Positions 1-30,195 of a DNA stretch of 64,000 nt are shown piece after piece. Each line of letters opens with the position of its first letter. Within the stretch, counting starts at the first letter, position 1. Made by a program: the position numbers and the translations under genes. The notes beneath the pieces are model-generated. The model did no database searches. It saw only the letters and a list, made by a program, of their open reading frames with translations, and was not told the DNA's origin. The stretch is from Ananas comosus (taxonomy: Eukaryota > Streptophyta > Magnoliopsida > Poales > Bromeliaceae): positions 3,678,231-3,742,230 of the forward strand of contig NC_033635.1 of assembly GCF_001540865.1 (NCBI RefSeq). Reading direction: 5' to 3'.

Positions 1-290
1 CAAAAATTTCTTGTATTTTATATTTGGTTTTAGTAGTGGAACAATTGTTTTCCCTTATTATTATTATTTTAGGGTTGTTAGTTTTACCATATAGTCCTAA
101 TTTTTTACAACGAGAGGTTTTGATTATCTATTGAATCTTTGGTTTTAAAAAATGACGTCTTAGAAGTTGTCACGGATTATCTGTTTTCCTTTCGTGTTCA
201 TCCTGGTTTTAAACCAGTCTTGTAAGTTGGTTGAGGTCGTCATGTAGTTTAGGAATTGATATTTCGTCACCATGTTTTCTTTCTCGTATG

Positions 291-1593
291 GAACAGGACC
301 GGTGGTTGTAGGGTATGCCACTTCGATTACAAGAATATGAGGTGTCAAAGGTGTAACTTAGGACGTATAAATTCGGGTTTTTTTAATGTTATGTTTGGCT
401 GTCTTCTTTAGACTTTGTTTCACGTTATAACTATGTATTCTTTATATACCGTCTCTTTTTGTCCATTTATTCAGAACTAGTACAGTGTCCCTATTTTATT
501 TTTGTTGTTGTTTGTCACTTAGTAAAGATATTTAAACTTTCAGTGTGGTTCCGATTTAGTTAGATTTAGATGTCGTCAATGGTTAAAGCGACATAGGCGG
601 AAAGGGAAGAGAAATTCTGGGTCTAGGTAAACATTAAAGTAGGTGGTGAAAGTAAATAAAGGAAAAAGTCTTGACAAAATAAACAGTAGATTTCTGAGGA
701 TGTGACTTTTCGTACACGCTGATTAAAGAAAAAATAAAAAACCGTCGGTAGATAAAAGATAGTCGAGTGTACCGTAGACATCGTCTATTTTGAACCAATA
801 ATATTCTTTATGTTATGTTAGATTCAAATTAACATTAAAAAAAATGACGTTTACTCAACATTCGTAATTTATATCGTTATTACTCTTGAAGGATTATTGA
901 ATTAAAGAGTGTAATAAAAAGAGTATTCGTTGTGTTCCCATTCTTCGAAAAGGGTTTTTTAGTCTAATTATCGTAAAGGAGCACCTGGAGGATTTTATTA
1001 AGTTATCTAGGTGTGCTTGTTTTCTTTCTCGATAGGATTAAAGCGACGTTTTCCTGTACTTTTTCGGATACTTCCCCTTTATGTCAACAACGGAGGGTAG
1101 TCGTATTTCTTAATGTCAACAACTGTAACTGCCAGCGATACCGTTTGGAAAAAATTTTGTATGGGGATTGTTTCGTACTAAGATGAAAGGATCGTTACAG
1201 GCGTGTATTGGTATATTATGTCGTATTGTACTAACGTTCGTAATCTTGAACTAAGTATCGTAACCTTGAACTTAGTTAATTATCGAGAGATGTTTAAGGT
1301 AACGAAGGAGAGACAAGAGAACGATATAACTGCTACTTTGTTTACCGTTAAGCTACAATGGTTCATTTATACAACGTCTAGTTTAGTTACATCATCGTCC
1401 GAAGTAGTAACGTATTCCTTTTTTGATTTTCCTAGTTTCCGAGTGGCTAGCACCCTTACCACCACTGCTAGAGAGGCTCGAACTCGAACATCTCCTACCA
1501 GCAGAATGGTCGGCGTAGTTCGGGTTGGTAGTTATAGGAGTAGAGGAAGAAGCGTTTCTCCGCCGATTTCTCGAAGCACTTCCACTCGGGGTA
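291..1593. CDS. ARF1-type ADP-ribosylation factor, 5' part (mirror reading, right to left)
   Basis: Small GTPase that recruits COPI and other coats to Golgi membranes. Read right-to-left without complementing, coding exon 1 is 1593 down to 1446 and exon 2 is 361 down to 291, giving the first 73 residues. It starts MGLTFTKLFSRLFAKKE, so Gly2 is present for N-myristoylation. The P-loop GLDAAGKT lies near residues 24-31, the TIPTIGFN switch-1 segment near 45-52, and DVGGQDK at 67-73. Introns are GT-AG: exon 1 ends with one base of a glycine codon that exon 2 completes. An intron acceptor at about 1604 precedes the start codon, so the leader is split. Residues 74 to about 181 lie beyond the left edge of the window. 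Placement in the ARF1 subfamily is very secure; which paralogue it is cannot be told. Confidence 0.96.
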
Positions 1594-2133
1594 GAAAGGA
1601 GAGGACATTGTTGTGTGGTGTTGTTAAGTTGAATCTAGAGATGTCTAGGGTCGTCTAGGTTTGGGATTACGTTGTTTGATTGCGGTTTTTGTATAGTTTG
1701 GGGGGTTTAGATGTTCTAGATTGTCCTTACCCTTCGGCTTTGGTTCTAAATGTTGTAGTTTAAGTTTATGACGTAAGCTAGTTTATCTTTTCGATAATTA
1801 GCTATTTTAGCTAGTTGTTATCATTAATTTTAGTTGGGTAGATTGTCGATTCTGCCTTATTGTCCTGATTTTCTGGTGTTTTGGATATTTTTTTGGCTCT
1901 AGCTAGCTTCTGGGTACCTTATTATTTCCTCTTACTAGCCTTAGCTTCTAGGTTAGTTTTATTTGTATCTTTACCTTCTTTTTGGCTAGTTAGGTAGTCA
2001 ATGTTGCTAAATTTTCCACTTAGCCTCTAGGCTTTGGGATTCTTGTTGCTCTAGCTAGCGTCTAGGTTCTCTCTTATCTCCTTTTCCTAGCATTAGCTCC
2101 TAGCCTAGCCTTTTGTCTCCAGCTAACCTAATG

Positions 2134-2201
2134 GGCCTGCTAGAGAGCGAGAGCAGCGCGCGAACCCTAGCCTCAGAGGCGAAGAAGAAGGAGCGAAGGA
2201 G

Positions 2202-2239
<38 letters not shown>

Positions 2240-2290
2240 CGCTCTTTTCCTTCCTAGCCTCTCTCTCTTGTCTCCTTTTGCTTGCCACCC
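2134..2290. other. ARF1 first 5' UTR exon with GA tract (mirror reading)
   Basis: In the right-to-left reading, the DNA just downstream of a TATA box is a CT/GA-rich plant leader with a GA repeat at about 2207-2237. It ends at a donor (cgtccgg|gtaatcc) whose GT begins at 2133. The matching acceptor lies at about 1604, just before the ARF1 start codon. A first leader exon separated from the ATG by an intron is common in plant ARF genes. The transcription start is inferred from the TATA position only. Confidence 0.65.
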
Positions 2291-2315
2291 ACCGAATCCG
2301 ACTAAGCGGTGAGGC

Positions 2316-2323
2316 AAAAATAT
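2316..2323. promoter_or_regulatory. TATA box of ARF1 (mirror reading)
   Basis: Read right-to-left, the sequence is cactataaaaacgg, a good TATA box about 30 bases ahead of the GA-rich leader of ARF1. As printed, the same bases run in the opposite order and match nothing. Confidence 0.6.
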
Positions 2324-5229
2324 CACCCACACCACGCCTTTCCTCTTTTAAGGGGCATCTTGACCAGATATCTGGTAATTGAAACATCCAGCTCTTTTCT
2401 CGGGGTTTACTGATTTATCAGGGACATGACTGGGCTAAAAAACCGGATCAGGGACTTGTAAAAATAAATTTGTAAAATGAAAGAAGAAAAAAAAAATGTT
2501 TTTTCGAAGATGAATAAATGAGGAGTGATGATTAATTTTAAAAATTTAAATAAGACTTTAATATTTTATAAAAAGGACTTTAGGTTAGATAAATCATTTA
2601 AGATCTTTTTACTTCTATAAAATTCTTTTTAGAATTTTGGTTGTTCTTATAAACCTAGGAGTTGTTTTTATAAAACTAGGTCATTATTTATTTTATAAAA
2701 ATTTTATGACTTATCGTATAATCTATAATAGGGAATTTTGTTATATTAATACTCACGATCTTTTTTATTTTATTAAAAATCTGTATATTTTAGTTATAAC
2801 TTTGTAATAAGATCTATAATTATAAAAAAATTTTAAATAAAATACAATCTTCAAAATTAAGATAAGATGTGCTTTCAAAATTTTCTAATATAGTTTTAAT
2901 TTTGAGAGCAATACAAGACCTTCTGTTATTTTTTCATATCTCTTAATTTCCTAATTTTATTTTTCAAGTCCTGATGCAACATTATAACCTTAAAATGTCA
3001 CTGATAATTAATCTAAAACGAAATCTTAACGAGTTATTATTTTGTCGCCACCCCCTAAACAACGCGGATATTAAACCAACCCGAGTCCCTAATGCACCAC
3101 TTTGCCCACATCCCTATACATAATAATCCGCCTTATACTTACGCTACGAAGCGCAGTTGGAATGCGTGTACTCTTCGCAACATCGCGCTGGCTTGGCCTG
3201 GCCTTAGTCGTATACGACATATTCAACCTGGCCCGGCCTAAACCTGGCCGTGTCACATTATTTAAATTTTTAAGTTTTACTCTATGCTCTCTAAGGTTCT
3301 CAATTTTTAAGTTTCGTCTCGAAGAAGTTAAATAACATAAACTTTATCCTAATGTTATTGTGTTTTCTTTTATATCTAAAAGAAACCACCGGCATTCATT
3401 TTAAAGTTAGGTGAATTTTGAAGTCTCGATTTTATATATATTTTATAATCTCTGATTTAACGTTATAGTCTTATGAACCCGGTGATAGGCAAATAAAATG
3501 ATATACTTATCGTTTAAAACCCCCCTCTTTTTCTTAAATCCGAAACAAACCTAAACGCCCCTCTAACGCAATGCATGCCACCCTTTCATGCAACCTTTTT
3601 ATAAGACAAACAAAGACATGCATTATAACGTAAGGCGTATAACGCTAATCAGCCAATGCGATATAAAAGACGCCAGGGTGGCCTCTTGCGCTTTCGTATA
3701 GGGATATACGAAAAAAGTGTTGAGGTAAAATAGATTATCGCAATATATCCGGAGTTATGGTTTGATTCGGAATATTTAGCATTCGTTCCAAGCAATGTTA
3801 CCTCCACCATTCAGTAAAAGTTTTTTATGAAGAGTGAATATCACTTTTTTAGTCTTTACAATTGAAATACAATATTAAGTTCTCGTACTCTTAACTTAAA
3901 ATATAATAGAACAACTTTTGTGGGACGTTACGTGAGAAATTGAAATTAAAAAAAAGGGAACAGTTTTCTTTTTTTAAAAAAGATATTAGGCGATGACTGT
4001 ACATTTTGATGACTTGATCGTTACCTAATCTGTCTCTTGTGTTTTGTACTAAACCCACCTTTTATAATATGTTTTTTACAAGTGGTTTAGTTGTTACACT
4101 AAATGTACTAACGCCTAGAGTAGCGTTTAGCGATCATTCTAGCGTTACAAAAAGAGTCTCGAACTGTGCTAGCTCGATTCGATTGAATTTAAGAACAGTA
4201 AATATCATCTAGTTTTGAGTTAGACCGAGTAAATTAAGCACAGTTTAAATGTAATGGGTATTTCTTGAATAATCCATAGGTGGGTGTCATATATGAATTG
4301 ATTTAACTTAACACATCAAGACTCATATTTGTAATTATAGTGTAGAACTCTAATAAAAGAGTTGTACCGACTGCCATTTAAAATTATAAGATATCAGAAA
4401 TCCAATTCTCTCAAATGTGCACAAATCAACACGGAATTTAATTTTCTCGTGCTCGAGTTCGGGTTAGAGTTTAGGTTGGGTCCAAGTTCAATAAAATGGG
4501 ACTTAGGGTAACACAGTTCACAGGAAAAATTCACGTGCCACGTTAAAGCAGGATAGTATATAAAGTTAATAAAAGTTAGCACGACCATGTAAACGCCATA
4601 GATACTCGTTATAGTTCGAGATTAAAACATGTAGGTAAATTTAAATCTCGGTTACAAGGTAAGGTTAATACCATGGAAAAAAAAAGTTAATTTAGTTTAT
4701 AAAGCTGATTTTACACATCCTTAAAAACTTAATTTTTTTAAGTTTAGAATCTCACGTTCCTCCGTTAAATAATCAAACTCAAAGCTTTAAAGGTTGGGGA
4801 TCTAAAAAAAAAAAAAAAGTTTTTCACCATGTCGAGAGCTTTACTTGTATTACTTGTCTAAAAAAACAAAAACATATGTTTTCTACTGGTAATATTTTTA
4901 AAAATTTTAAAACTTTAAGCTTATTTATCGTTTATTATTCCTCTCCCTACTCCGTAGAGAGAGAGAGAGAGAGAGAGAGTACATAGAATCGATAAAAGAA
5001 CCTCATTAGGATATAGAGATGTTATTTTAGAGATAACAAAAGGGTTTTTTTTTTTTTTTTTTTTGTTAGAGCGGGGAGGATATGACATAATGACATCAGA
5101 TATTTAGTGTAGTGTTTAGAGAGAGATTTTTTTTTTTTTATGTTAAAGACGTTTTTAATTTTTTTTTTAGGGGATCGAAAAGTGACGATGATAAAAATGA
5201 GCGGGGAAAAGAGGAGGTATAGTGGGGCT
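2324..5229. other. Divergent intergenic region between ARF1 and GAMYB (mirrored)
   Basis: No gene is seen here in the printed, reverse-complement or mirror readings. ARF1 reads leftward from one end and GAMYB reads rightward from the other, so both promoters lie in this stretch. It is AT-rich, with a more GC-rich patch at about 3040-3260 that may be an old repeat, a GA run at about 4957-4979, and poly-T tracts near 5050 and 5130. Confidence 0.5.
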
Positions 5230-6783: not shown

Positions 6784-9700
6784 TACTGATTACGTTTTTT
6801 CCCTTGACTTTGATGTTAGTACGGTTTCCTAGCCTAACTAAGAGGTAGGAAACTACTTCCATCGTCATCGCCGCCTAGTCGATTACCTCCTCGGGGACAA
6901 AATTTCTTCCCTGGAACCTGAAGACGACTTCTACGGTAAGAGTAGCTGATGCAATTCTTCGTGCCCCTCCCCTTGACCTTACGACAAGTTTTCTTAAGCC
7001 CGGACAGCGCGACGCCATTCTCGACGGCAGAGGCTACCCGATTAGTAGACTCCGGTTTGAACTTCTCTCCACGGTAGTGAGTTCTCCTCCTCCTATTCTA
7101 GTAAGTTGACGTGCGATACAATCCCTTGTTTACCCGATTTTACCGACGAGCACATTCATTTATAAAACAGGAAACATGACGTTGGAATAAATCGTATCAC
7201 TACGGATTACTGTCACGTAAAACGTTATCCAGGTGTTTGAAATTTTTACAAAATAATGGATTGGAAAGTGATACAAACTAAATTGATGGAGAGTTAGTTT
7301 TGAACTACCATAAACCCTTGGAAAGATTACTTTATAAGACAATATAGTACCTTACAAGACAATGAAGTACCCTATAAGACATTGAAGGAGAAGGAGAAGA
7401 AGAAGAAGCAACCAAAATTTGCTGTTCGTAGTTCAAGATCGTCTTGTATTATACTCAAAGACAAGAGTTTTCATAGCTTTGTCATCCAACGTTCTAACTT
7501 TATAAAATGAGTTATTTTACGTTATATCAACTCCACTCAAGATACGTAAAATGGAAGAAATAGGAACCAAAACAAAATCGGATACGAAAAACCAACGTCG
7601 TGTATACAGGCATTAAAACAGTATTCAGAATCATTATATTTGACTTGTTCAGAGTGAAATCGAAGATGGGAAGAATTATATAACTAAGGAGGAGGAGCCT
7701 TAGACATGAACCAGTACTTAAGTAAGACTGCGTATATTTCGACACAAATCATGTTTTTTTAGGAGTAACATATTATTTAAGGTTCAGGAGGAAACGGACG
7801 CTGAGATAAAATATTTTTCCGTATAATACGTATGTCAATCGAACGTATGAGGGCGACAAACTATTACGAGAACTACCAATTCAAGACAACATAGATAGCT
7901 ACTTCAAACCTATGAGGTAGACATTTCTTACTTCATGTAAAGTATATTTCACTGTCTATTTAAACGTTTTCTTATCAATATATAAACTACAGAGTTATAA
8001 AAACCCATACACCTCTTATAGTTATCTGTGTTCTTGATATAAAGAAGTTGTACCCCAAAATTGACTAACCTATAGACCGTGAGCAAACCGAAGAATTTTC
8101 GAGATCTGTAGAGGCAATGAACATATAGAATCAATTTCTCTTCACTGAAGAACGAAAGAGTATACAGAGCTAGAACATACTTCTAGATATGAAGAAAAGG
8201 AAGTTTGTCAACAAAAGACGTTAAAGTAAGATACACGAAAAAAAAGTCCAATATCACTGTCTCCTACTCATTTAGCGGGATTCCGAGGAATTGGAGATTA
8301 GTATCGAAATCAAAACAGGAAGCGGAATTTTAAATACCTAAACTCAGGGATCGGAAGCGATAAACATCGTTAAGGTAAATAAAGGAGGTTCAACCTATAT
8401 AGGTGTGTTAGTGGTGTATTGAGGGCACATTCACCGAAAACTGAAGAGTATACCACTAATACACCATAAGATAGGTCATATTCCTTTTTTTACCCTTGTA
8501 TTGTCTTACGATTTCTCATGTTTGTTTACCTTTACAACCCCTTAGTTGACTTTATAAAATCTCCAACCCCCGGACGCTACGTTATATACACTTTCTCCTG
8601 ATAAAATATGTTGGGACTATTAAAGAAAAACTCTAAACAAATTTAAAAGGTCTTAATTTGAGTTTATACGAAAAAAAGAAGTCAATGGTCCCGCCTGTCT
8701 ATTGCTCTATTTCTTGATAACCTTGTGGGCCTATTTCTTCGCAAACGCTTACCCCAATGGTTAAATGGGTCTTTTATAGTGACAAGTTCATGTTTTGCTT
8801 TTAGTCGTTAGAGTGCAGCGATCGTCGAAATCGTCGTCAAAGGGACTTTCCGGTTTGATATAAAAGGTGCCTTTGTTACAACTGAACGGAATATAGTAGA
8901 AGCTGTTAAATTTACGGTTGGGTCCTCGGAATAGGATGGATGGCGGTGGTTTGAGATTAAAAAGAGAGAGATCGTACGCATAAGTCTCAAACCCCCACGT
9001 TTTAGCAACGAAGTGCTTAAGTTACTTGGTGTGTTCTGTCGAATTACTTTGCTAGAGAGAAGGGTGACCCGAAGGACAACAACTCGTTGAGAGGTCAATA
9101 AGAATACTAGGACTGGGACCGTCATTCTTGGGTCTTCGCGGAGATCACTCACGAAAACCACCACCGGTAAGGGAAAACTTACCGAAGAGGAGACGAAGAT
9201 TCGGGGAAGTTCCCCGGCACTTCAACCTCGAGGGAAGTGAGGTTATAAGACTCTGACTAAAATGGTGCCTACTAGGAACCAATCTATTTCGTCAACTATG
9301 AATAGACGTTAGAGGACGATGTTAAGTAAGCCACGTTTTGTTGTGAAAACGGAGATACGTTTTATGGCCAGAAAATCTTAGGGAATAATTGTATAGTGGT
9401 TGACATTTGTCGAACCTTTTAGCCGGTACGGGTTTATCAAGACCAAGAAGTCAAAACTGTTGGTTACTGAACCGTCTTCGAGGACTCTAATTACAGATGT
9501 TGGTTGCGAACCATCCAATATTACTTTATCGAAGAGGCACCTCATTTAAAGGATGAAAAAATTTACTCACGTGCGGAGGAGAAACGTCGTCGGGCGAACT
9601 ACTCGAAGGTGGGGGGTTGAGCGGAAAACCATTCGTAGACATGACGAAATATATTATTAGAGCGAAACACACAGACCGGGATCGAATACAACTTCGAAGA

Positions 9701-10402
9701 GACAAGGTTCTTCACCCTGTCAGATCGTAGTCAGTTTACCTTCAAACCTGAAGAACAACACCATTCTTCGACTTTACTTGAAAACTTGGGGTTTCTCGTA
9801 TTTGAGAATTGAACTTCAAAGACGAAAACAACAGCACCCTTCAACAACGCTAATCACAAAAAAGTTTCTCAAAACATCTTAATAAGATAGATCCGGTCTT
9901 TCAAAGACCGAAGAGGTTTTCGTCCTTCAAGATGAAGCATAGAAGACGACGATCGACGTCGTGTTCCGACAAACTGTCCCAAAAAGTTACATTTCGTTAA
10001 TCAGGAAGTCTGTCGAGATGGATCGTTCGTAAAGAGGACTTCGAGAAATAAAATCTACGCATTGAACTTTAAGTGTAATGATTTTGAAGGTGTCCTAGCT
10101 TATAATAGAAACGAAGACCACTCGTTTAAGGTCCGGGTGCCAGTTCGCTTGTTCTTTGGGATAGAGCGGGCCTAAAGAATTCCGGTCTGCTTAACGAACT
10201 AAGATTGACCAAAGTACCTTCAAGACTTTAACGTTTTCTTCTAATACTACAGTTGCTCCATTATTGCCGTGAAAATCGACTTCTGAAAACGTTGTCCGGA
10301 CAAAGATAGCTAAGTTGAATATATAAGTCATTACCCGAGCCGGAGTTACGGAAGGGCACCTTCTTGTACGGAGTCCGAACAGTTTACAAGCTTTTAGGAA
10401 CT
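6784..10402. CDS. GAMYB R2R3-MYB transcription factor (complement reading, left to right)
   Basis: Gibberellin-responsive MYB activator, active in aleurone and anther. Complementing the bases in place and reading left-to-right gives coding exons 6784-7152, 8684-9629 and 10095-10402, together 1623 nt and 540 residues, with GT-AG introns and no internal stop. The R2 repeat begins GPWTSAEDAILIDYVKKHG near residue 43. It is followed by the R3 repeat, split after MAAR and resuming LPGRTDNEIKNYWNTR, the usual intron position in this family. The middle holds S/T/N-rich segments typical of GAMYB, and the protein ends CQMFENP. Exon 2 contains the miR159 target. The gene is convergent with the At5g17910-like gene and divergent from ARF1. 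Length and intron pattern agree with GAMYB from other plants. The printed sequence shows none of it. Confidence 0.96.
9225..9245. promoter_or_regulatory. miR159 target site in GAMYB exon 2 (complement reading)
   Basis: The in-place complement of these 21 bases begins TGGAGCTCCCTTCACT and continues CCAAT, which is the conserved miR159/miR319-type target found in GAMYB mRNAs. It encodes the residues ELPSLQ in frame. The family relationship is established knowledge; cleavage in this plant is inferred. Confidence 0.92.
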
Positions 10403-12182
10403 CTAGAAAATAGCTTCCCGATTTAACGTCCTCTGGGGAATATTTATAACACTAAAAGTGTAATGGGACGACTTTAAATCTTTGTTGTAGAATAGGATAA
10501 CCGTGAGTACTGCCTCCCCTGCCCCCCTTCTACTACTATAGAACCTCATACGTCCTAAGTTATAAAATCGGCCTTAATTGCCTTTGACGCTACAAATAAC
10601 CCCTAAAGGAAGTTAAATCGGACATGCACTTGAATCTAAATAAAGCCGAAACCCACTAATTATCATGAAACGATCACATCGGTAACGAATACAAAGAACA
10701 AACATTGTCATTTTATAATCTACAATATACGAACGAAATTCGTAAGCTGCCCAATTAATCCCGATCATTAAATGACACTTAACAACAACTTATTATACTC
10801 CCTCTAATTGCTACAATGGGCACTATGAAGTTAAAGTGTATACCTCCTCAATAAACAAAAAGGACAATTTATCAAATGACGACGTACCGAATAAAACAAA
10901 GTCGTAAGTCTCATAAGACATCGAAAACAACGTAAGTCCCATAAGACATCGAAAATAAAGTTCACTTATAGTAAGCCTCGTACGATAGGCATGTGAAAAT
11001 CTAATGCACAAGTAGAGTGTAAGATAAGTAGGTTTCTAAGAATAAAAAGTGAACAAAATAGTTGAATAAAACATTTGAGATCCTACGCACCCCACATTTT
11101 AAATATGGATACGTATTCTCAGGTCTATCCATCGTAAAAGGATAGTAAATAACAATAAAAAAAATAAGGTGAAATAATAACTAAGATACCAAATAAACTA
11201 AACTTAAACGTATTGCAAAAATATAATAACGTATCATTTATTCAACAACCAGAGAGAGAGAGAGAGAATTCAACGTTATCACCTCACGGAGAGGTAGTTA
11301 GTCTTATATATATATATAGAAGACGAAAGCGTCAACGTGATTATTAGTAGGTCTAGTACAGGGTACGATAACGTTAGAGACACTTAGTATAGTTTCGAGG
11401 AAAACGGTTGGAAACAAAGAGGACGATGGAGTAAAGTGGCAACGGCAGCTTAACACTTTGGACGTGTCTTTTGTCGAACCGACCTAGCAGCACCACGTCA
11501 AACTACCTTTTCTCGGGAACTGCCTGTAGTGACGCTCTTCGCGACACTTCGACCAGTCGTGACGTCAGGAAACTACATTAGGCAGTTATGTTGACATTAG
11601 ACCACTAGCTATAGCTACGTCCGTCGTACCTTCTCTTCTCTATCAACCAGAATGTCAAGGTCAAACGTCACGCGTCGTAGCTAAGCTGTTCGCTTTCCCC
11701 TGTTAAACACGAGTTTCGAATGTTAGAAACGGCAGCGTAAGATCAAGGTTCCAAAGAAAACTCAAAAACCAAAGAAACTAATCACCTTAAGTACAAAGAA
11801 GGGAAGAGATATAATAATAATAATAATAATAATAATAAAAGCGAACAAACAACCTTCTACATTAGGTTTGAAAGAGATTCTAAACTACTCTCTGTACCAA
11901 ATAGAGGTTTCTCCAGTCTATTTCTATACTATCAAATTACGGTAGTTCCACTTTCTGTACTATCAGGTTACTTGTGTTATTTCGGAATAGTGACATGCAC
12001 TTTCTTAAGAAAAATCGATGCAAGTCATGTTTATATATTATCTTTCAACTAGTTTCGTTATCTGTAAAGGCGACATTCGTCTTTGTGTAACTACTTTAAA
12101 CTGTACAAAGAAAAATCATCCTTTGTAGTTTTATTTCTTTTTTTCTTCAGGTTTATTTGTTTAGATTGGTGTCAACTTCGTA
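10403..12182. other. Convergent 3' region between GAMYB and the At5g17910-like gene (mirrored)
   Basis: Holds the 3' UTRs of both neighbours, a GA run at about 11251-11268 and a TAA microsatellite at about 11809-11838. Around 11320-11760 a GC-richer block shows short open frames in the complement reading (one of about 45 codons starting MSHAIAIS) after a possible acceptor. I recognise no protein there. It could be a 3' UTR exon, a non-coding RNA or a decayed gene. Confidence 0.4.
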
Positions 12183-14988
12183 GATCAAACTTGATGGTAG
12201 TGAGCTGAGTCGGAGGTATCTTCTGTTCGAACTTTCTGCGTCGCCGGCTGATCGACGCGCCCCTCCGTTCTGCCCGTGCTAGCCTTCCGCCTTTAGAAGC
12301 GCTTATAGGAAGTTCAGTCACGGTTCTTGTAGCGCGAGAGACTAAACTCTATGGAGGGAGCTAGAGCTGAGCAAGAGGAGGTGCGTTCGGTTTGAGCCGC
12401 GCTGGGTTTAGTGAGGAAAACATCTACTTAGGTGGACGCCTCCACTCACTGACCTCGGTGGAAATAGACATTTTGTTCTCATTAACGTACAAGCCGGATT
12501 GAAAACTTTGTTGAAATGATAAGGCTTTTTCGTTGTACTTATCGTTAAGATCTAATTTCAAAAACGGTAAACGATTTGACAAGTTCCTCTCCTATATCAG
12601 ATAATCGTAAAGATCATATAAAAGTTTGTCAAAATGAGTTATCGTGAATACGTTTTTGACAAGTTCGATTTTCAGGTAAGGATAGCTCTTTTTACCATTT
12701 ATTACCGTATTAGTGTGATACTAGGATGACAGGTTCATAAGTGTTATTAAAGTGCATGAAAACCAACCAGACTGTGACCCTGTTCTTCCTTTCTTCTTGT
12801 CCTCTTTTGTTACTATTCTATTAACAGTTAACCGTCTACTATTTAATGATAAAAAGCTTTAAGGCACTGAGACTTTATTGTTTCTATTCTATTAATGTAC
12901 TTTTGAGAAATAAAAATATATGAAATCAAGCTACATATGTATATTAATTGGTTTAATGAGGGTTTAAGAAAGACTTGACTTAAAACTTAAAATTTCGGAC
13001 GTATCTCGTTTCGAACACTAACACTATTCTCTTCATTTAGTGAGGAGTGGACGTATCTCGTTTCGAAGAAGTTCACGACTTCGTAAACTGTCGCTGGAAC
13101 GGCTGCCCGATCTTAGTATTTGTCCCAGACGCTGAACTGAGAGTAGCCGTACGCGGCGAAGCAATGGACTTTATAGCTCATTTCTTAGCTATTCGTTGCT
13201 AATAATATTAGGTGGTATTTACCAATTGATAGGTTGGTAATGAAAAATTTCTAATAATAGTGGACCAACAAACTCTAATAATAGAAGTCAGTGATGGCGG
13301 AAGAGCAGTAGGCTTTAACTGCTTTAACTGCGGCTAAGAAGTCAATAAAGGAGGAGGTATCGAAAGCTTAATAGAGGCGGCGAAGGACGACTGAACTAGA
13401 GTCGGAAATAGACAAGCAGCACGTAACTGAGCGGTAGCAGCCTGCTAAGCGAGAGATGAAATCCTCGAAGTAACAGCACCGAGCATCGCTCAAGTGAGAC
13501 AACCGATAAGTGAAGTAGGAGTTGTTAGAGGAACAGCGTAAGAACTAGTAAAGGGCTGCTTTGGCACAGCCTCATGAGAACCGGAAGCGAGTCGAACCTA
13601 AGCGAGAAGAGCGACTTAAGAGAGAGATTTAGTCGCTTTAACCAGAGGAGCCACAAGAGAAAGAGCCGTTGCTTTATTCCAGACTTAGAGCTTCCGGAAT
13701 TCAGAACAAAGTTCAGGGGCTCTTTACTGAGCGGATAACACTTCGAGAGTACGGAAGATATATTGTTTAGGGAGCCGCCTTCACCTTGTTTTGGGACTAC
13801 CCATCTTAACAATAACAATGACAACAACAACAATAATAATAATAGTAGTAGAAAGGGACGTCCCAATAATGAGAGTAGACGAACAAGTATTCCTTCTAGT
13901 TTTCCTAAAGACGAACCATTCTCCTGGCTTCCTCGGCTTGGGCCTTAACACAGTAGACTTAGCTTTCCTTCTAGTTTTCCCAAAGAAGAGCCTCGCTTTT
14001 GGACTCCTTAAACCTGAACTTTAAAACTATTAAGGAGATACCATCCGTTTCTAAGTAATGGTAGGTTTAGTTAGTTTAAGAAAAGGTAAAGGCTAGAGTG
14101 CTTGAAGGAACGGGAGGAGGACCGTTAATTTAAAAGGTTAGAGACTAAGGAGAGCTAGAGTCTTCTGGGCTGCGAGTACTCTAAGAAAACTAGTAGGCGG
14201 CAGGTAAGGTGCTGAAATCGTACTAGTAGTAGGAAGAGAAGAACACGAGGAAGGAGAAGAAGAAGCAGGAGCAGAAGGAGTAGTAGCAGAAGAACTAAAA
14301 GTCAAAGAAGGAGCTACGATAATGGCAGAAGGCTAAGCGCTAGTACTCTGCTAACACAACTGCGGCGTAGTCTCGGCAGGAAGCTACGACGACTGCCGAC
14401 TCCTCGGAGTCTTAGGTTGTCTCCCACCTCGAGCAGTTCGTAGCCCTACTAGAGTCTCCGCAGCCTACTCCTATAGAGGCTGACTAGTCCGAGTGTTAGT
14501 CTTCGTCGAAGCGCTACTAGTTGTACTAGTTAGAGATGGAGATGGAATCCGAAAGGTGAAAAGAAAACTAGGAGGGGTTAGAGTGAACCATATAAAAGCA
14601 AGAAAGCTCTTTTTGGCACTAGTAGAAAGAGAGATTGGCTAAAAAAGAGCGATGCCGAGCGTTGATTTCGAGGAAGTACTACGAAAGAGTGTTCTCTTCG
14701 TAGGAAACGAAGTGGTAAATGTTCGGAAAATGGGAGGAGAAATCAAAGTCCGTGTAAACCAAGTGGTATTGAATTCTCCTCAGGCTCTTCTTGGCGCCAC
14801 GTATCTTAACATCCTTTACTTCGGTTGTCTTCTCGCTTTTAGCTTCCTTTTATGGACATATAATACTCCTCTTTTGTGTGTTATGTTTCTTACTTTCCTA
14901 CTAGGGCTTGTGTAGGCGCTGATCGGGAAGCGTATACTTAACCTTAAAAGAACTACATAGGGTGATAAAGGAAGCTTGGCTAGCGGTA
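12183..14988. CDS. Acidic membrane-anchored plant protein, At5g17910 type (mirror reading, right to left)
   Basis: Function not established; similar plant proteins carry only descriptive names. Right-to-left without complementing, coding exons are 14988-13263, 13166-13050 and 12466-12183, together 2127 nt and 708 residues, all GT-AG. Residues of about 30-75 form a hydrophobic stretch (HPFILCIVCFLLIIYR, then FALLLASFPTILCTAVLLG), likely a membrane hairpin or two segments. A long acidic low-complexity region follows, with an Asp/Glu run coded near 14170-14240. Then comes the family signature VVEWTADDQKNLM and ERNQRLENLIARRRARK, repeats of the motif NPFDLPY, an Asn-rich insert at about 13801-13850, and RRHESF. 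A leader intron acceptor lies at about 15026. Family membership rests on remembered similarity and is fairly strong. Confidence 0.88.
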
Positions 14989-16832: not shown

Positions 16833-17849
16833 AATACATATGAAAGGTTAGAGGTAGAAGAAGAACTAGCGGGCGACAGGTACCATATATTTGCGTAGCT
16901 ATTAAGGTCTTTGACACTTCTGTGGACCTGTAACAAGTATTCATTGGTTTTTAAGCCCAATTATTGAAATACTCGTTAGCATTCATAAGCCATTTTGACA
17001 TGATTAGGTATTTAGTCCAGCTTGGAGGTTGTTACCGTGTGTTCAATCAGTCTATCACTTCTTTCCTAGCCAAAAGAAGGCACTTCTAGTGGACGTTGTA
17101 TCCAAGGTCATTTGGAAACAGGTCTATAAAATTTTTTATCTTTGCGTTTATTTACTCCAACCCTAGTGTCACATAACCCTAATAAGTGCGTGCGTCTGAT
17201 TAATCGACGTTATATTGTCGTGGTTAGGTTCGTGGGGGCGCGCGCGTTTTTGTTGTGTGTGTGTGTGTGTGTTTTATTTTCTTTTTCTTTTTTTTTTTTG
17301 GATTCCTATTAAGAAAACGTAATATCTACAATTTATATTTTATAAAAAGATGAGTATAGATCGCTAAGAAGTGAAGATCAGAGATGGTCTGTGTAGTGTA
17401 TTGTGGTATTCTCTTCATCTACCCTGAATTTTAATAGTATAACTCTTGTCTATTTGGTTTGATCGACACGTAGTTCAGTCATTTTATAGTTCTTTAAGTA
17501 AGGTGGAGATTGTTTATATATCCGCATGCAATCTCCCCGACTAAATTTTCTCATTAAGACTTCTAAACTATACCCACTAAGAGTATAATCAGTATTATGG
17601 AAGCTGTTAAATCCTGTGATACGGTTAACTTTTCTAAACTTCTCGCCATAATTGTAATTCCTATAAAAATAAGTGGAATTAACCACTCTTCAGTATTTTC
17701 TTCTTATGCGGTCCTTGCCCGAATCCTATTTGTAAAGGTAGAGACTTCACGAGACAGTGACTCTTGACACCCAACTTTTTTTTATCTCCTTTCTTTCTTT
17801 CCTTTTACTCCGTAGTATTACACATGTTTTCCATTCTATATATTGTCCG

Positions 17850-17906
<57 letters not shown>

Positions 17907-20900
17907 TGAAATGGACCAACCTCACCTAAAACACGGGGGAATACAGTCACATTTAACACCCCTGTTGGACTCTTTCATTTCTTCTAGGAAGTTCTACGTG
18001 AGCGTACATTATAGTCTCGTATTTGTCGGATGGTCAGGCTAGTATATTCTACGTTATAGGTCTATTGTACTATAGCTGGTTCGTACCTCTTTTCTCGTAA
18101 TAGCAGGGGTCGGAAAATGTTCTAAATTGTAAAAGTTAACAATGATAAAGCAAGTATTTTAAACAGGAAAAAAGAAAAAGAAAAAAAAAAAGTGTTGGTA
18201 CGGGAAATCCCATTTTGTATATAAGTAGGGGTTTTTACCTAACTTTTGTAGCAGTATTAACGGTACATATACGAGTGCATCGACGGTAAAAAGATGTACC
18301 GTTAATACTTGTAAAGTAGGAAAAAGTTACATTACTTTTACATGTTATCTACGTTTCCAACTCCTAGTTAGACATCGGCACGATTTTATAACTCCTGGCG
18401 GTTACCTTAGATGGGTCTTATTTTCCTGATCGTATTGTCATTCCGGTTGTTAATGAGTGGAACTATTTCATGACTATACGGGGTCTACTACGAACGACAC
18501 AGGTCACGCGTGACTATACAAGTAACTTGACTAATCTTAATACTTATTTTCTTTGTTTTTTTTTCCTTGACATCTAAGGTTGAATGGGTAGTTCTCCTAA
18601 ATGTCGTGGACCCTTGAGGAAAGGCTTCCTGTCGAACAAATAAAACACTCATTAGACCATAAAAAGTTTATTTTCTCAGTAAAATATAGAAGTTAAATAG
18701 GTTGTTCAGTTTACTCAAGTACTTACGTTGAGTGTAACATTAAAAGACGAACTTTCCGGTTGTTTAGTACGTGTACCTGTAAACTAACTACCTTCGAAAA
18801 AGGTCGCCGTTTTACCTTTAAAGGTCGATGAAATGGTTGTAGGTTCTTGGGTACCTACAACGTAGGAAGGGGAACAAGGAGAAATTAGAAAAGTTAATTC
18901 GGGAGGGAGCACGTGATTGTATTTTGTTTCTGGTGTTCTAGTTTTAGTTTGTTTTCCCTCTAAAAGATTACAAAATACCTGCTTGTTTAATATTTTCCCC
19001 CGCCAGTCGTACTCTAACTCTAACCCATCCCAAAAACATTCATGTTATGATTTCACGTATTATCTTATTTAAGTCTCCCCAATAGACGTTAATCGCATTT
19101 ATATATATATCTAGTTATTTTCGAAGGTCTCTTTGTTAATATTTAATGATACCGGTTTGAACTATTAAATATCGTTAGTTTTCGAATTTAACAGGTTATA
19201 ACTATCAATATGGACCAGCTAATTAAGACCTAAACTGTTTGGGGTAGGAAATAAAGATATACGAAGTGCTTGAAGAAGTGTACTTAATGTCGTAACTAGT
19301 AGGTTGACGTAAATCTTTTTGTTAATAAAAACTCAAATGTCTTTTAGTTTGTCGGTTGCCGGTTCGTGTTTTCTTTGATAATTTTTTTTTGATTTGTGTC
19401 CTTTTTGTGTCACTTATTGATCCATAGTACTAAAGGATAAACGGTGGGACTTTATAACTTAGATTGTGTCGTTGAGGAGTTTGGTATATAAAAGTATGAA
19501 AACGGAACAAGGTCGTCACAACGAAGTGGTTATATTTAGTGAAACGATTATACGGTCGTTCCATTTTTGATTTTTGTCCAAAATTATAAAGTTCCCCCGT
19601 TATAATTATCCTCCCATAGTATACCAATTCGGTTTTTCCTTGTTAATTCGTGGATTTCTCTGCCGTAATTATAAATTTTTTTTTTTTGTTGACGTTGGTA
19701 TAAAGGTATGGCAAAGTCGTGGTATCGTCCTTGGTGTCATGCAGAGCAATACGAGTTCGGAGGGGGGTACAGAGACATCTCCGGAGAGTTAGATGTATTC
19801 TTTTTTTCCCATTCTTTAATATTAAAATTTGTTCCTTAAAGTTGGAGAATTACAGTATCAATGGTTCTTTAATCTTTATCACCGACTATAAAACGAATTT
19901 AAAAAAAAAGACCGTGAGACGTCCAAAAATAACGGGTTCAGTAATCCGTTAATTGTATTCGAGGATATTCCACGGATTCGCAAAGTTCCTCTCGTTTTGA
20001 AAAGTCTTCGATATGTTTTTCCGGTTTAAGTTTGTAACTACGGATGTAAGTATATTGGACGTATCACCGGTTTTTGTCCCTTTTTTTTTTCTCCTCCTTA
20101 AGAGTTCATATCTAATGTACGAATGTACGATTAGTATTCATGTTTTCAATGATTGGAAACCCCGTGGTTGTGGTGGAACAGAACTGGGTTATTGTAAAGG
20201 TTCTACCAGGTTGGAAAAGAAATCTTACAGTACGGAGATGTTCACCTGTCTATATTATGTACATCATATAAGAAACTTCAACGCCGATATATTTAGATGT
20301 CGTGATATATTAGTTAATTTCTGTTGTTTTCTCTTCCCACACTTGTATGATACAGGGTCACAACGAGGGGCGATTATAGGTAACATAGTTGTGAGTTTTC
20401 ACTCGTTCGTTATCGACCTTTTCATTATAGTTTGACGCCCTCTTGTTTTTCAGTAGTTATGAGCACCGTTTTTCTTACTTGTAAACTATACACGACTTTT
20501 TAAAAGTAGTATTCGGAGATATACTTACAGAGACTATATTTCCATACAGGTCATTTATATATATCTTATCAACGTTAAAGTTGGATTTACATCGTGAGTG
20601 TTCCGTTCACTTTGATATTGTTTGGATAATCATAGTAGATGAGTAGTATTCTCATCAATATTAAGCAATAATTTTAATCGTCCACTTTTCGTACTATAGT
20701 TCCTGAAGATGTATAAGAATGCTCAAACTTTGCCTCTATCTTTTCAATTCTGTTAGGTTTACATGAAGTTATTAATTAGTCGGGATTTTGGTTCGGTCGT
20801 TAAAGTTAAAATTGACTATCTTTCTTTCACTTCATGATTGTAACTGTGCATCAGAAAGCGGAGCACTACACAGTTGGTGGTTGAATCAGAGTCAACGACT

Positions 20901-21777
20901 CATTTTTTTATCAGGACCTTTTTTTCCTACTTTAACTCTTTACTACTAATCTAAGTGTGATATGTTCGTACATCCTATGTAGGTCCTTCCGCTGTTCTTG
21001 TGTTCATACGTAACTATACATCCATACGTTCTTCCATACGTTCTGAGTGGTCAAAGGTTCATACCGGATTATAAATTAATTCTCTGTGTTTCTCCTTAGG
21101 GTTTTACAGTCTAGTTCGAATATAGTATAAGTAGTTGGTAATCTATACTAGTGTCATGAAGTGATAGACCCTAATATGGTATATTACGGCGAGTACGTTT
21201 TGATAAAAGGGATTAACGTTATTTTGTGTTCGTGTGGTTTACGGAAGATGTACTGGTGATTTAGGCTAATATTTTATTCAACTATTTAGTTGTTTTTGTT
21301 AAGTTTTAGGTTAAAAATTATCTTGGGTGTTTCGTGGTTTTGGTTTTAGAAGCTTTTTAGGATGATATGTGTTGAGTTAGTTGGTATGCTTCCTCGTTAT
21401 GTGATGTATTACTCTACTTTTTTCCTCCTTTTTTCAATTTAGGGTTTGGTTTTTCGCAGAGTGAGCAGAGCTACCACTTCTCCTTTGTCATTTAGTTGTT
21501 TTTAGGTTAAAAATTCTGTTGGTTGTTGGGTTACCGGAGTTTTGGAGGCCCTTTAAGATGATGTCTCGCAGGTTACTTGGTAGGTTTCGTCGTTTGTGCG
21601 TTGTATCGCTCTAGTCTTCTCCGCTCCTTCGCAGAGTGAGCAGAGTCTCTACTTCTCCTTCTCGTACTGCTCTCGCCTCTGCTATCACTGCTACGGGGGC
21701 CTCTCGCACGCCGACATCTTCAGGAGCAACTAGAAGCCCATGCGCAGCTCCAAGAATTCGAACAACTCCTAGAGGTA
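16833..21777. CDS. ERGIC3/ERV46 ER-Golgi cargo receptor, 13 coding exons (mirror reading, right to left)
   Basis: Type II-like ERGIC protein that cycles in COPII/COPI vesicles with its ERV41 partner. Right-to-left without complementing, the coding exons are 21777-21639, 20914-20841, 20433-20350, 20236-20156, 19791-19711, 19305-19213, 18914-18735, 18654-18587, 18511-18460, 17967-17914, 17765-17676, 17091-17025 and 16924-16833. These sum to 1155 nt and 384 residues, the family's usual length, with all introns GT-AG and the frame kept throughout. It starts MEILNKLKNLDAYPKINEDF, followed by a membrane segment (TLSGGIVTIVSALVMLFLF). The luminal part contains DTMDISGEQH, RPLQRHGGRLEHNETYCG and CCNSCEEVREAY. 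A second membrane segment covers YLTNLCAIVGGVFTVSGIID, and the tail ends KKKMEIGKYT. The leader carries ctagggttt twice and a GA tract. A diverged duplication touches the first donor. Confidence 0.97.
21453..21645. repeat. Diverged tandem duplication over the ERGIC3 exon 1 donor (mirrored)
   Basis: Read right-to-left, the 18-base string gagacgagtgagacgctt spans the end of coding exon 1 and its GT donor (21645-21628). It recurs at 21470-21453 inside intron 1. The following intron sequences also resemble each other (both contain taaaaattggatttt and a ttgttgattta string). This suggests a duplication of about 175 bp that copied the splice donor. Confidence 0.6.
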
Positions 21778-24700: not shown

Positions 24701-25009
24701 GTCTTTATCTTCCTTCGTTCTTGTCACGATGTATTATCATAATAGATAGTTCGGCACTTTTTCTAAGTTGTTTTCTGTTCGTTTATGTGATAGATAAAAT
24801 GCAGTTCGTTATTTTTCTTGATTTAAAGATCTTTTTAAGATTTCCTAGTTATCGTTATCGAAATCCTTGACATGCCGAATATTAGATGTCTATCTTTCAA
24901 GTTCCGTATCTTCTAGTAATAAACATTGTTGTAATGGTCTTTTTTCTTCATTTTCTTTATGGTCTATATTCAATTACGTGTTTAATATCAGCAGTTAGGA
25001 CACTTTCCT
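21778..25009. other. Intergenic: ERGIC3 leader/promoter and SUVH 3' flank (mirrored)
   Basis: In the mirror reading, 21778-21990 is the GC-rich ERGIC3 leader. About 22140-22260 is a GC-richer promoter block, and 24900-25009 is the SUVH 3' UTR. Poly-A and poly-T tracts lie near 22300-22345 and 23110-23180. A block at about 23600-23900 has modest open frames in the mirror reading, but no recognisable protein. No further gene can be supported. Confidence 0.45.
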
Positions 25010-27097
25010 AATTGGCTTTTTAGGCGCTGTTAAACCACTACGTGTATTCGTGAAGAATCGAGACGCCCTCGGTTTTGGTGGATAAGAGAGTAGTAATGAC
25101 GGTGAGTGTGGTATTAGCATTCAGTTAAGCCAGTACCCTCCTTACACGAACTCGCGTTTCTTGTAATATACACGTACGGGAAGTAGTGGTACTAGTACAT
25201 TATGGCCGACGGTATTGTGTAATCCACTCGTTGATACCAAGTATTTTGCACGCTATAACGGGTATGAAAAACGTCAATACCATTACCCATTGTTTAAGAC
25301 CCGAAGGCAACTAAGTAAGCATGAACCAAGTGGGTTATTGAGCCAGGGTGCTAAGGTAGAACTTCAGAAAAGCGGTTCTATACGACAAACTTTCTATATT
25401 AGTAGAAGGAGTAGCAAGTACAGGTGAGATTGGAGTAGTTATTCAAGCGGGCATATAAGTGTTTATTTACATGGCCGGGCCTAGCCCAGGGTGCTTGCAT
25501 CCGGGGTTGGCGCTAGGGCGCAGAATTTTTGGAGTTTCACTTCGGATTAAGGGAAAACCCAGTGAGATAAAGCTGTTAATTTTCTCGTAACTGTTCTTCT
25601 TGGTGTAAGTCGTTATTCTCCGAAAGCCGAGTGTTCGTTGGGATCTCTTGATATCCCTTCCAGCGGAAGTAAAACAACGCGCGTGCTCGTTAATTACAGT
25701 GGTCCCTCTGTCTGCGAAACCGTGAACGTTGGAACATTACCAAAGTAATTCGACTAACCAAAATTTATAAATTGGAATCACTATATACACTTTACTCACC
25801 CAGGAAAGAGTAACAGTTGTAGTAATTGTTCCGTTTGTCCATATAAGAGTCACGGTCTCCTATTTAGTCTATCATATTGAGAGGGGGAGGGGCTGCCCAA
25901 GAGAAAGGTAAAAACTCAGTAGAAGGTTTGGCGTTCTGGGAGCCCAACGGGACCGAGAGAGTCGTTAAACATGAACTTTTGTAACTATGGTCTGAAGCGA
26001 AAGAGGAAGGTGCTCAAGACTTAGAACATCTCGGGTAGTATCATTATCTAAAAGGGCCAAACCGTCAACCCCAGAAAGCGCGAGGCGTGTTGGGATTAAA
26101 CCAAGAAAGCCATGTTCGAAGAAAGGTTTCGTTCTAAAGGGGAAAGTTCGAAAACCAGGAGCAAGAACCACGATGGAGGAACTGGTCACATTTAGTTCTT
26201 TAGCTGTAGCAGAAGGAGTAAGAGCATTGGCGGCCTCCTTTGTTATGTATAACGGTGCCCTAGTAGAACTAATAGCTTAAACCGCCAGTACATCAGTTAT
26301 GGACGGTACGATCCCCGCACATTTGGTTACTACGTGTAGAGGTAGGATTTTATCTTTTATAGGGGATGAAGTTGCGGTCCATGACCCGGTTAGGAGAAGG
26401 GACGTAATCGGAACTCTAGCAATCGGTTGTACTAACGGGGCCGGAAATTTAGGACCGCGGGCAAGTCCAAGCTGCTGAGCAGGTTGACGTCTTCGGCGGC
26501 GGAGTCACGTAGTTTTTAGTAGTACTAGCGGAGGTGTAAGAGGGATCCCAGTAATATGCTTTGGGACTCCCGGCGATAGAGTAAAAGGCCATGGAAGGAA
26601 TGACCGAATTCTCCGAACTGGAAGAACTGAAAACGGCTTAGCCTCGCGAGGCGTCTCGACGAGGGATCCGCCCTGCCGGAAAACTAAAAGGCCGGAGATC
26701 TTCTCCAGAGGCATTGCTTTTACCTGAGTAGGAGGAGCAGGTAAAGTCACTTCGAGCCGCCCCACACTTTGCGTCTCTAACCGCACCGAAACTACCCCGG
26801 CAATCTAGGTAATGATCGTTAAAAGCCTCCGGCAGGAGAACCAGAAAAGTGGCCTCAGTGAACTCCAACACGTCGCCGTTTTCTGCCTTGCCCGCCCCTT
26901 TTCAATCTTCCTTAACCTCTAGGTTTTAGCGGGCTTCTCCCTGGTTTCCCCCAATACGTTTGATCACCACCTAACGAACTAACCAATTTCAACAGCTTGT
27001 GGTTTACCCGCCCCTTTTTACCTCGGTCTCAAGAATTCCCGAAATGTAGGTTTCGTAGGACCAAACTTGGAACGCCCAAGAAGCCCACGGAGGGGTA
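25010..27097. CDS. SUVH-type histone H3K9 methyltransferase (mirror reading, right to left)
   Basis: Nuclear enzyme that binds methylated DNA and methylates histone H3 lysine 9. Right-to-left without complementing, one intronless frame of 695 codons runs from ATG at 27097 to TAA at 25010. Intronless coding is typical of SUVH1/3-class genes. It opens MGRHPKNPQGSNQD and has DVKPLRTLAP, usual for this group. An AT-hook KRPRGRPPK sits near residues 84-92. The SRA/YDG domain (about 233-393) includes GPVPGVEVGD, SGGYENEEDD, YTGQGG, DQKLERGNLAL and YYYDGLY. Pre-SET cysteines (GCKCQSVCLPGDINCSC) lie near 457-473. SET follows with NHSCSPN at 620-626 and YDYG at 660-663. Post-SET cysteines (CLCASPNC) sit near the end. 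Catalytic and Zn-binding motifs are intact. A leader intron precedes the start. This is the decisive evidence that the contig is mirrored. Confidence 0.98.
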
Positions 27098-27112
27098 TCG
27101 TTTGGTTTCATG

Positions 27113-27696: not shown

Positions 27697-28195
27697 GAGC
27701 TCCTCGGCCTTTGGGATCTTTAAACGTTAAAAAACGAGCATAAATCTAGCCACTTTTGGGATCTTTTCTTAGGCTCTTAACCTAGGAGCTAGATAAAATC
27801 TTCGGAGTGGTCGCAAGCCCAAGGGAAGTTACCTAAACAAAAATCCCTGTCTCCGGGACCGAAACTGCCCCTCTGTGCTCAAAACATGCCTGCCGCAGGC
27901 GTACGCCTCCCCCTTATACGCCACCTCTAACTTCTTACTCACTAACCTGCCAGCTAACGTGCCCAGGCGTACACCGCATCAAGCATGTTACTCGAGACGG
28001 TAAACTACCCAACCCTCGGCAACCTAACAAACCTCTAAGCACCACGGGTTATAGACAGCTGGCGAACAACTGCTATCAATCTTCGATCTAATGCGAACAG
28101 GAGACGACTGAAACGTTGCCACGTTTTACATGAAGTTTTACATTAACCAAAGAAAGAAGAAAAAAAAAAAGGAAAAAGATTATATATGTGTTATT

Positions 28196-28807
28196 TTGAT
28201 AAATGGATAGATTGGAGAAATATTTTTTTATAAAGGATAGATCGGAGGAAAACTTTTTATAAGAGGTAGATCGGAGTAAAAGTTTCTAATCTCTTTTTTT
28301 TTTTTTAAAAAAATTATATATAATTCCCCAATTCACTTCCTCTAATAGAAAAAGAGAGAGTAGAGGATAATTAAAAATATAGTTTTATTAAAATTAGGGT
28401 AAGCCGGATATTTAAAGTACAAAATTACATAATTTTGGATTTTATGCTCTTTAGGTTTATCAAAAACCTAGTTCTAGTAATATTAGTTGAGGAAAGCTTG
28501 GTACGTATTATAAAAGTAGTTTTATATTTTTCTAATCTTAACCAACTACGCGGTACACTTTTAAAAGATAAAACTTTATTTAACTATACTCTATTTAATA
28601 TGTGTTTTTAATCCCTCACTCTTCCCTAGAGCCCCTTCCTCTCTCTTTTTTTATTAAAGGAGGTGAATTGGGAAATTATATATAATTTCCATAATTAAAG
28701 AGAAAAAAAGAAATTAGAAACTTTTACTCCGATCTACGCCTTATAAAAAGTTTTCTTCCGATCTATCCTTTATAAAAAAACATTTCTCCGATCTATCCAT
28801 TTATCAA
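28196..28807. mobile_element. MITE-like element with long terminal inverted repeats (mirrored contig)
   Basis: Left arm ttgataaatggatagattgg is matched in inverted-complement form by the right arm ending ccatttatcaa. The similarity continues about 140 bases inward, through repeats of gatagatcgga spaced about 30 bases apart. Inverted repeats survive a mirror reversal, so this is visible as printed. No coding capacity is seen. Target duplications are not obvious. Confidence 0.65.
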
Positions 28808-29111
28808 GATGTGTTATATCTGTTTGTAATTGGCATGTGCAAACTTCGCACTGTATTTGAGGTTTATACAAAAAAAAAAAAAAAACTCTTTATCCATCGA
28901 ACGATGGACGAAGTAAGTAATTCGTTTTACTTAATCCGAATGTATAACCTCCGTCGGTCCCGGAGGCTCCGCTTTGGTTGCTAATGTTTTTGTCTTTTCT
29001 TTTTGATCTGATGGAATATCGATGGGAATGTTGATTCTATGTTTTCCCGGGATATCGTTGGGTAAGTTTATTCTATGCTCTCCCTCTTTGAGGAGTCAGG
29101 CTTCTTTGACC

Positions 29112-30195
29112 AATGGACCGGAGTTAGGTTAGACACTAGTTTCTTCACTGAGCAAGTTCTTGGGCCTATCGTAATTCTGAGGGGAGCGTCTTCTAGGACA
29201 ACAAAGCGAGACAGGTTTGGTGGGTGGTCTAACGGCGGTTAGGCCAATCTGAAAAACGAGAGTTGAGCCGTAACACATACAATGGATTAAGTCGGGTTTA
29301 GGAGGACCGTGGGGGATGAAGGCTAGGCGAATACAGACGTTGAGGGCATGTTTCATCTTCCATAGACTGCTTATGTGTGAGGGCTTTTTCCACTAGTGAC
29401 CAAAGACGATTGTATCGCGTTTTTTACGTCATACCTAGCTGTACCGGGGGAGAAGCCTATTAAGACAGACGCCATTCGTTAGAGAGCGCCTCTTCATAGG
29501 TTTACTTTTAAAACTAAAACTGGCCTTAAGACTCGGAGGTCTCTACTTGCATCTGCCTCAGAGAGTCGGGACGTAGTCACTACTTGAGCATTTCGCTAAA
29601 CTGGCATTTCTAAACTAAGCTTCAGGTAGAGGTGAATTAACATAGACCACGTAGGCTACCTGATATGACTCGTTAGTCTAAAAACTCGTTTCAGGAGACG
29701 GCCGCCCGCAGCGACAGTCATAAGCGTTATTCCCGAGACCAATATTTTGCGGTAGAGGTGGGAAATAGTAAGGTCGTAAAACTTTGACACCGGAGGAACA
29801 ACCGTTGCGACCTTACTTATGGACCTTTAGATCATGACTCTCCCCAAAGAAGTTAGGTTTATAGTCTGGTGTCGGATTATAAAAAGGGCAACGGCTCGTG
29901 CATGCTTTGTGGTGTAGACTTGTGAAGAGCTGTAGAGTGGTGTGAAGAGGTGGTGACCCTCACCCCAGCCTTCCGAGAAGGGAGTATATTGCCGGAAGAA
30001 GACCATATTATATTTCTAAATTAGTTGGAGGGGGTATCGACTAAGCCGAGAAACTTCTTCGCGGTGGTGGTAAACCAATCATCTCGGCATAAGCGACGAA
30101 GGTACAGAAACTGAGGATCGGGGGGAAGAAAAAACGAAGATGTTTAATCAAAGGTTGAGTGGTCTGTACTCGGAGGGCATTAAAAGCTCGATGGA
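29112..30195. pseudogene. LINE (L1-type) ORF2 C-terminal part (mirror reading, right to left)
   Basis: Right-to-left, one open frame enters from the gap at 30195 and ends at TAA at 29112, about 361 codons with no stop. It begins GSSKITGGSCLVSWK and continues SKKEGGLGVKDMEAANTALL, KWWWRFF, then IRLWSDIW and a zf-RVT-like block (LWRLRIPVKIKIFIWILL, and a Cys/His motif YCIFCAMLAETSDHLF). This is the downstream end of plant non-LTR retrotransposon reverse transcriptase polyproteins. The 5' part is cut off by the assembly gap. The open frame suggests a young copy. Confidence 0.93.

Follow-up and report, generated by a model that had tools for sequence, protein, structure and literature searches.

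The question raised by this locus is why the first 30,195 positions of the window, a stretch of 64,000 nucleotides of the pineapple (Ananas comosus) assembly (C15:3678231-3742230), yield no readable gene as printed. C-numbers designate contigs of the assembly, which has 381,958,007 bases in 3,128 contigs; positions without a C-number are window positions. We designated positions 1-30195 as A and the part of the window to the right of the adjoining gap of 25 Ns as B. DNA is called mirrored when the order of its letters is reversed without complementing (or when the letters are complemented in place) and right-handed when it is normally readable. The results indicate that A is the right part of a longer block on C15 that is a string reversal of DNA on C12, and that this block was very probably made when contigs were joined or gaps filled and a redundant sequence was reversed but left uncomplemented. 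It is firmly shown that the block is an artefact and not biology. The artefact is larger than was first noted in a preliminary description of the window and, on repeat evidence, is recurrent through the assembly.

Handedness of the two parts of the window

The open reading frames of A depended on how it was read. The longest stop-free frame had 158 amino acids in printed A versus 710 amino acids in mirrored A, and 12 versus 24 frames had at least 100 amino acids. The maximum in 100 dinucleotide shuffles of mirrored A was 241 amino acids, with at most 12 frames of at least 100 amino acids; for 100 shuffles of printed A the corresponding values were 174 amino acids and 8 frames. The 12 frames of printed A are also above those of its own shuffles, and thus the frame count alone is a weak test, with length and homology deciding. 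None of the 10 longest frames of printed A matched a Pfam family. Five of 10 frames from mirrored A, which were partly chosen by eye and are not its 10 longest, did match (SAD_SRA, Pre-SET, SET, zf-RVT, Myb, and Arf). Searches with tblastn gave significant matches in A only when it was mirrored, with the pineapple SUVH1, GAMYB, and At5g17910-like proteins and with ARF1 and ERGIC3 sequences as queries. Significant matches of ERV1 and RPS29 in B were obtained only as printed. These results bear out the preliminary description, according to which no gene can be read in printed 1-30195 and protein matches appear only in the mirrored version.

All of the features that had been named for mirrored A were recovered with Pfam, tblastn, and splice-aware alignments; no strand is given for them here. 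The gene for ADP-ribosylation factor 1 (ARF1; Pfam Arf) was found at 288..1593 on the reversed string only, with exon 1 at 1593-1446 and exon 2 at 361-288. It is cut by the window edge after codon 74, and more exon text is present left of the window, on reversed L135. A GAMYB-like gene at 6784..11501 (exons 6784-7152, 8684-9629, 10095-10258, and 11469-11501) was readable only after complementing in place, and in a splice-aware alignment with four exons all 504 residues were those of P0241 (Ananas comosus GAMYB-like isoform X2). ERGIC3, at 16836..21777 on the reversed string, has 13 exons and matched Pfam ERGIC_N and COPIIcoated_ERV. The single exon of a SUVH1-like histone methyltransferase (SAD_SRA/SET) at 25013..27097, also on the reversed string, encodes 695 residues, all identical to those of the NCBI Ananas comosus protein P0001. 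The tail of a long interspersed nuclear element (LINE; zf-RVT) at 29115..30194 of the reversed string has a frame that continues from C12:751469.

The At5g17910-like gene at 12197..14988, on the reversed string, has a first-exon frame of 580 amino acids that is identical over all 580 to P0121, whose source label, 'lgn', we take to denote read-derived Logan contigs; two more exons came from the crude gene finder only. Among the 120 matches listed for this gene, identity was seen only under the 'lgn' label and no protein is named as one of Ananas, although its locus mates SUVH1 and GAMYB have such a match.

The preliminary description had counted about 20 correct splice junctions in mirrored A. 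We counted 18 introns with GT-AG ends, 16 from splice-aware alignment and 2 from the crude gene finder. The aligner accepts only GT-AG introns, and therefore the intron count by itself proves nothing. However, the alignment scores for the right mirrored reading (GAMYB, 2640.9; ERGIC3, 886.0; ARF1, 320.7) versus those for the other three readings of the same genes (-131.1 to 13.7) back the mirrored reading.

Comparisons that do not depend on genes gave the same result. Four repeats common to A and B were found by blastn when A was mirrored and none as printed; the corresponding numbers of shared non-simple 18-mers were 14 and 0. A k-mer handedness score trained on B had the opposite sign in all ten 3-kb blocks of A. 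Of the 11 cross-validated blocks of B, 10 agreed and only the first, which is repetitive, did not; directly after the gap the DNA was too repetitive for k-mers to decide. Total scores of the crude gene finder, which fuses genes, separated the two hands of A (41 printed versus 479 mirrored) but not those of B (110 printed versus 91 mirrored). No tRNA gene was found in A or B, printed or mirrored, when these four strings were scanned.

The mirrored block on C15 and its right-handed copy on C12

Window positions 1-40000 did not differ from C15:3678231-3718230 at any of the 40,000 bases compared, and thus the mirror sits in the copy of the assembly examined. It might be proposed that the mirroring was introduced after deposition rather than by the assemblers. 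This is quite improbable, given that the genome sequence agrees with the window and that mirrored repeats are present on many contigs, often beside N marks, as described below.

The mirrored block extends over 37,823 bp, C15:3670603-3708425. The preliminary description had placed its edges at 1 and 30195. The right edge is exact, lying against the 25-N gap (30196..30220), where the reversed LINE frame reaches 30194 and continues on C12. The left edge is not base 1 but lies 7,628 bp further left. On the evidence of open reading frames, Pfam, tblastn, and blastn, the part within the window (1..30195) belongs to a reversal of C12:751470-789321 (37,852 bp), to which the reversed block is about 99.9% identical. 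The blastn alignment of C12 with the reversed block came in two pieces. The longer one (27,991 columns) had 5 mismatches and 2 gap openings, and the shorter one (9,853 columns) had 1 mismatch and 9 gap openings; in this comparison 67 C12 bases were filled in from the mirror. The differences listed are mostly in homopolymers and simple repeats. Apart from those 67 bases, C12 between 749471 and 791600 contains no N. SUVH1 is present right-handed at C12:754568-756652, with 100% identity.

Because the same locus is right-handed on C12, it is not missing from the assembly, and the C15 block is a reversed false duplicate. A derivation of the block and its right-handed copy from different assemblies was ruled out, as both copies are in one assembly.

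Biological rearrangement, whether an inversion or an inverted duplication, would be expected to leave a reverse complement. Yet, when the printed block was compared with both strands of C12 by blastn, only short simple-repeat tracts matched, and the reverse complement yields no gene. A chance string is at odds with the shuffled controls, which are far below the mirrored frames and below the counts of reversed repeats given in the next section. The two strands of DNA are antiparallel, and a cell has no process that would reverse a strand and leave it uncomplemented; the cause must therefore be string handling. Rearrangement and chance were rejected on the Pfam null for printed A, the shuffles, the aligner scores, and the blastn comparison with C12, and their combined probability is negligible. 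The earlier attribution to a scaffolding or file-handling error rather than a biological inversion is thus supported.

The DNA directly left of the block identifies which operation restores the locus. C15:3669668-3670602 is the head of the LINE and is identical to C12:750535-751469 (0 of 935 bases differ). On C12 the LINE frame crosses 751469/751470 unbroken; on C15 it ends four residues past the joint. The bases left of the block are those that precede it on C12, and consequently plain reversal, not complementing in place, restores C12:750535-789321 in order. The other end of the block, C12:789321/789322, is a run of poly-C.

The preliminary description had treated reversal and complementing in place as interchangeable. 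This is correct for reading the genes. The two operations give the same double strand, and hence the genes alone cannot discriminate between them. For the layout it does not hold, as only reversal rejoins the LINE tail with its head. If only a complement step had been missed, so that the contig's place on C15 was correct and its LINE end adjoined the gap, the LINE tail would be separated from its head. The bases to the left of the block are those that precede the LINE end on C12, which places this end on the left, and B had no match to the C12 pieces examined, the LINE head included. A missed complement step is very improbable and was rejected on the identity of the LINE head left of the block and the unbroken frame on C12.

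The LINE head is preceded by 29 bp (C15:3669639-3669667) that correspond, as reverse complement, to a different part of this LINE at C12:749696-749724. Their sequence suggests that C15 has a native LINE insertion with an inverted 5' end.

Mirrored DNA on other contigs and how it may have arisen

The preliminary description had confined the error to one contig, which proved incorrect, because mirrored DNA was also found on others. E1, a 545-bp element resembling a miniature inverted-repeat transposable element (MITE) at C15:3666097-3666641, was reversed and used as a probe of the genome. Reversed E1 gave 306 first-look candidates, of which 40 were scored, and 168 matches, many of them near full-length at 82-94% identity, with up to 93% over the full length of E1. 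Nineteen of contigs C1-C25 and five small contigs were represented among the matches listed. Forward E1 gave 5,426 first-look candidates (40 scored), and a dinucleotide shuffle of E1 gave none in the genome. When a 571-base LINE query was reversed, all four of its candidates matched, at 70-78% identity; forward, it had 196 candidates, and all 40 of those scored matched.

Mirrored DNA was indicated by repeat matches in all eight 10-kb contexts around reversed-E1 hits (L154-L161), as expected of contexts picked around such hits. The k-mer score agreed with mirroring in L155 to L160 (in L160 from about 5 kb on, one kb aside). Six of the eight contexts also contained right-handed DNA (L154, L155, L157, L158 by k-mers only, L160, and L161), and in five of these six the change of handedness was, at the resolution used, compatible with an N mark (25, 219, 1, 1, and 182 N). 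Two further 25-N gaps bound handedness changes in L154, and the changes in L157 and L160 are at single Ns.

Gene-anchored loci served as a control. Twelve of 16 were tested singly, and all 12 matched the rest as printed, with no mirrored bases in 11 and 97 in L128. Forward E1 was found in all three of the E1-bearing loci, L123, L129, and L133 (82% over 443 columns, 70% over 471, and 74% over 98), and reversed E1 was found in none of the gene-anchored loci searched.

A second gene-bearing block was found on C3111, where a mirrored frame encodes a piece of RST1 (Pfam DUF3730, E 2.2e-15). Its right-handed counterpart is at C10:12951434-12951987. C10 aligned with the reversed C3111 string over 2,056 columns at 99.76% identity and had no blastn match to the printed string. 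With the twin of the C15 block on C12 and that of C3111 on C10, both of the gene-bearing mirrored blocks tested are second copies.

In L156 (C2970:22001-32000, from a contig of 74,202 bp) the k-mers on either side of a 25-N gap indicated mirrored DNA, and the whole of C2970 may be mirrored. One mirrored frame of L156, which had no Pfam match, presumably resembles a tetraspanin.

Several blocks have N marks at one edge, and both blocks tested are redundant, which suggests that the mirrored DNA arose when contigs were joined or gaps filled. The sequence of events most likely to account for the C15 block would start from a sequence, X, that began inside the LINE and ended in a homopolymer. X would have been linked, in a repeat-mediated misjoin, to a C15 contig ending in the identical LINE head, and would thereby have been used a second time in the assembly, as a redundant copy. 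The orientation step should then have written X or its reverse complement but would have written reverse(X) instead. This error presumably recurred at other joints.

A narrower explanation is that a gap filler of the PBJelly kind extended the flanks of contigs with long fills, some reversed without complementing, and that no whole contig was mis-oriented at scaffolding. We consider this a realistic possibility, with somewhat less than an even chance. The gap beside the block is exactly 25 N (30196-30220), two more 25-N gaps bound the changes in L154, and the C15 block, L154, L155, and L161 each have an N run at one edge and none at the other, as expected of an extension that leaves a residual gap. 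Excerpts of the published descriptions state that PBJelly defines gaps as at least 25 Ns (PMC3504050) and inflates gaps of less than 25 bp to exactly 25 bp (PMC6733440), as in the gap beside the block; no string reversal is described in the excerpts of either paper. However, changes of handedness also occur at single Ns (L157 and L160), with 1, 182, and 219 N at other changes, and the excerpts of the literature covered contained no mention of PBJelly use for the pineapple assembly. A fill of 37.8 kb would also exceed the raw long reads of that period, which were shorter.

Several points weigh against our preferred reading, a joining or gap-filling step that reversed redundant sequence, which names a kind of step rather than a particular tool. 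In L154 and L161 the short mirrored parts are supported by repeat matches, and there the k-mer score was undecided or positive. In L158 the change lies away from the N, and L154, L155, L161, and the C15 block each have a second edge without N. With changes at 25, 182, 219, and single Ns and some edges without N, no single joint type marks the error. The mirrored share of candidates was about 5% for E1 (306 of 5,732) and 2% for the LINE (4 of 200), values that are loose first-look counts rather than verified totals, with at most 40 candidates scored per query. Reversal of every minus-strand contig would be expected to leave roughly half of the assembly mirrored, yet only 2-5% of repeat candidates are.

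Taken with these counts, it is probable that one string-reversal bug seeded hundreds of mirrored blocks. Standard tools could then not read a few per cent of the DNA (2-5% by two repeat families), which would mostly be hidden duplicates of loci found elsewhere in the assembly, and assemblies from the same pipeline may share the fault.

The mirrored blocks combine features of known assembly errors. As in false duplication, there is a near-identical second copy of a locus within one assembly, at a joint (C15/C12 and C3111/C10), but the second copy is string-reversed. Tools that compare only strands and their reverse complements will therefore not pair the copies, and blastn did not do so for C15/C12 or C3111/C10. 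As in repeat-mediated scaffold misjoins, the joint is inside a LINE, the 935-bp head of which C12 and C15 share without a difference; unlike an ordinary misjoin, in which the DNA stays readable, the handedness changes. As in inversion errors, base order is reversed relative to the true locus, but without complementing. A search for "reversed but not complemented" and similar wording returned, among the excerpts of the literature covered, no report concerning an assembly; two papers that contain such wording appear to be unrelated.

Two screens of prokaryotic genomes, which see only 16S-bearing contigs, found no such DNA. A reversed 16S pattern had no exact match in genome_contigs (84,980 species by description), in which the forward pattern matched at least 117 stretches. 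Among 5,426 E. coli genomes, no match was found for a reversed 446-base 16S piece, which in forward form matched at 37,546 places in 5,375 of them.

A mirrored block looks like a gene desert or like repeats that fit no class, and a gene may be truncated where such a block begins or ends. False duplications also go unnoticed when a check considers just a strand and its reverse complement. Wherever such blocks occur, they affect the k-mer statistics, copy counts, synteny, and repeat content derived from the assembly, and further studies, as far as their titles indicate, build on pineapple genomes. A handedness screen, with k-mers or a reversed high-copy repeat, exposes mirrored blocks and is applicable to other assemblies.

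Features right of the gap

The genes that had been described as normal to the right of the gap were confirmed as such. ERV1 (42206..45756, plus strand, six exons) and RPS29 (52735..54008, plus strand, two exons) have normal handedness and were found in the printed reading only. A zf-UBP exon of normal handedness is on the minus strand at 48161..48427.

In addition to the 25-N gap, the window contains single Ns at 31160, 33489, and 35031. The sequence at the gap edge, 30221-30246, is directly repeated about 150 bp onward, at 30374-30400. Between the first two single Ns (31161-33488) the k-mer score was -4.2 per kb, which leaves the handedness undecided. A weak CTNNBL Pfam match at 31794-31850 (E 0.01, below its cut-off) favors the printed handedness there, and a PDB search with that frame returned no match.

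The MITE-like element E2 (37602..38190, plus strand) has the same handedness as its relative E1. Both E2 and C15:3666082-3666666 are MITE-like, with terminal inverted repeats, and are set in (TA)n.

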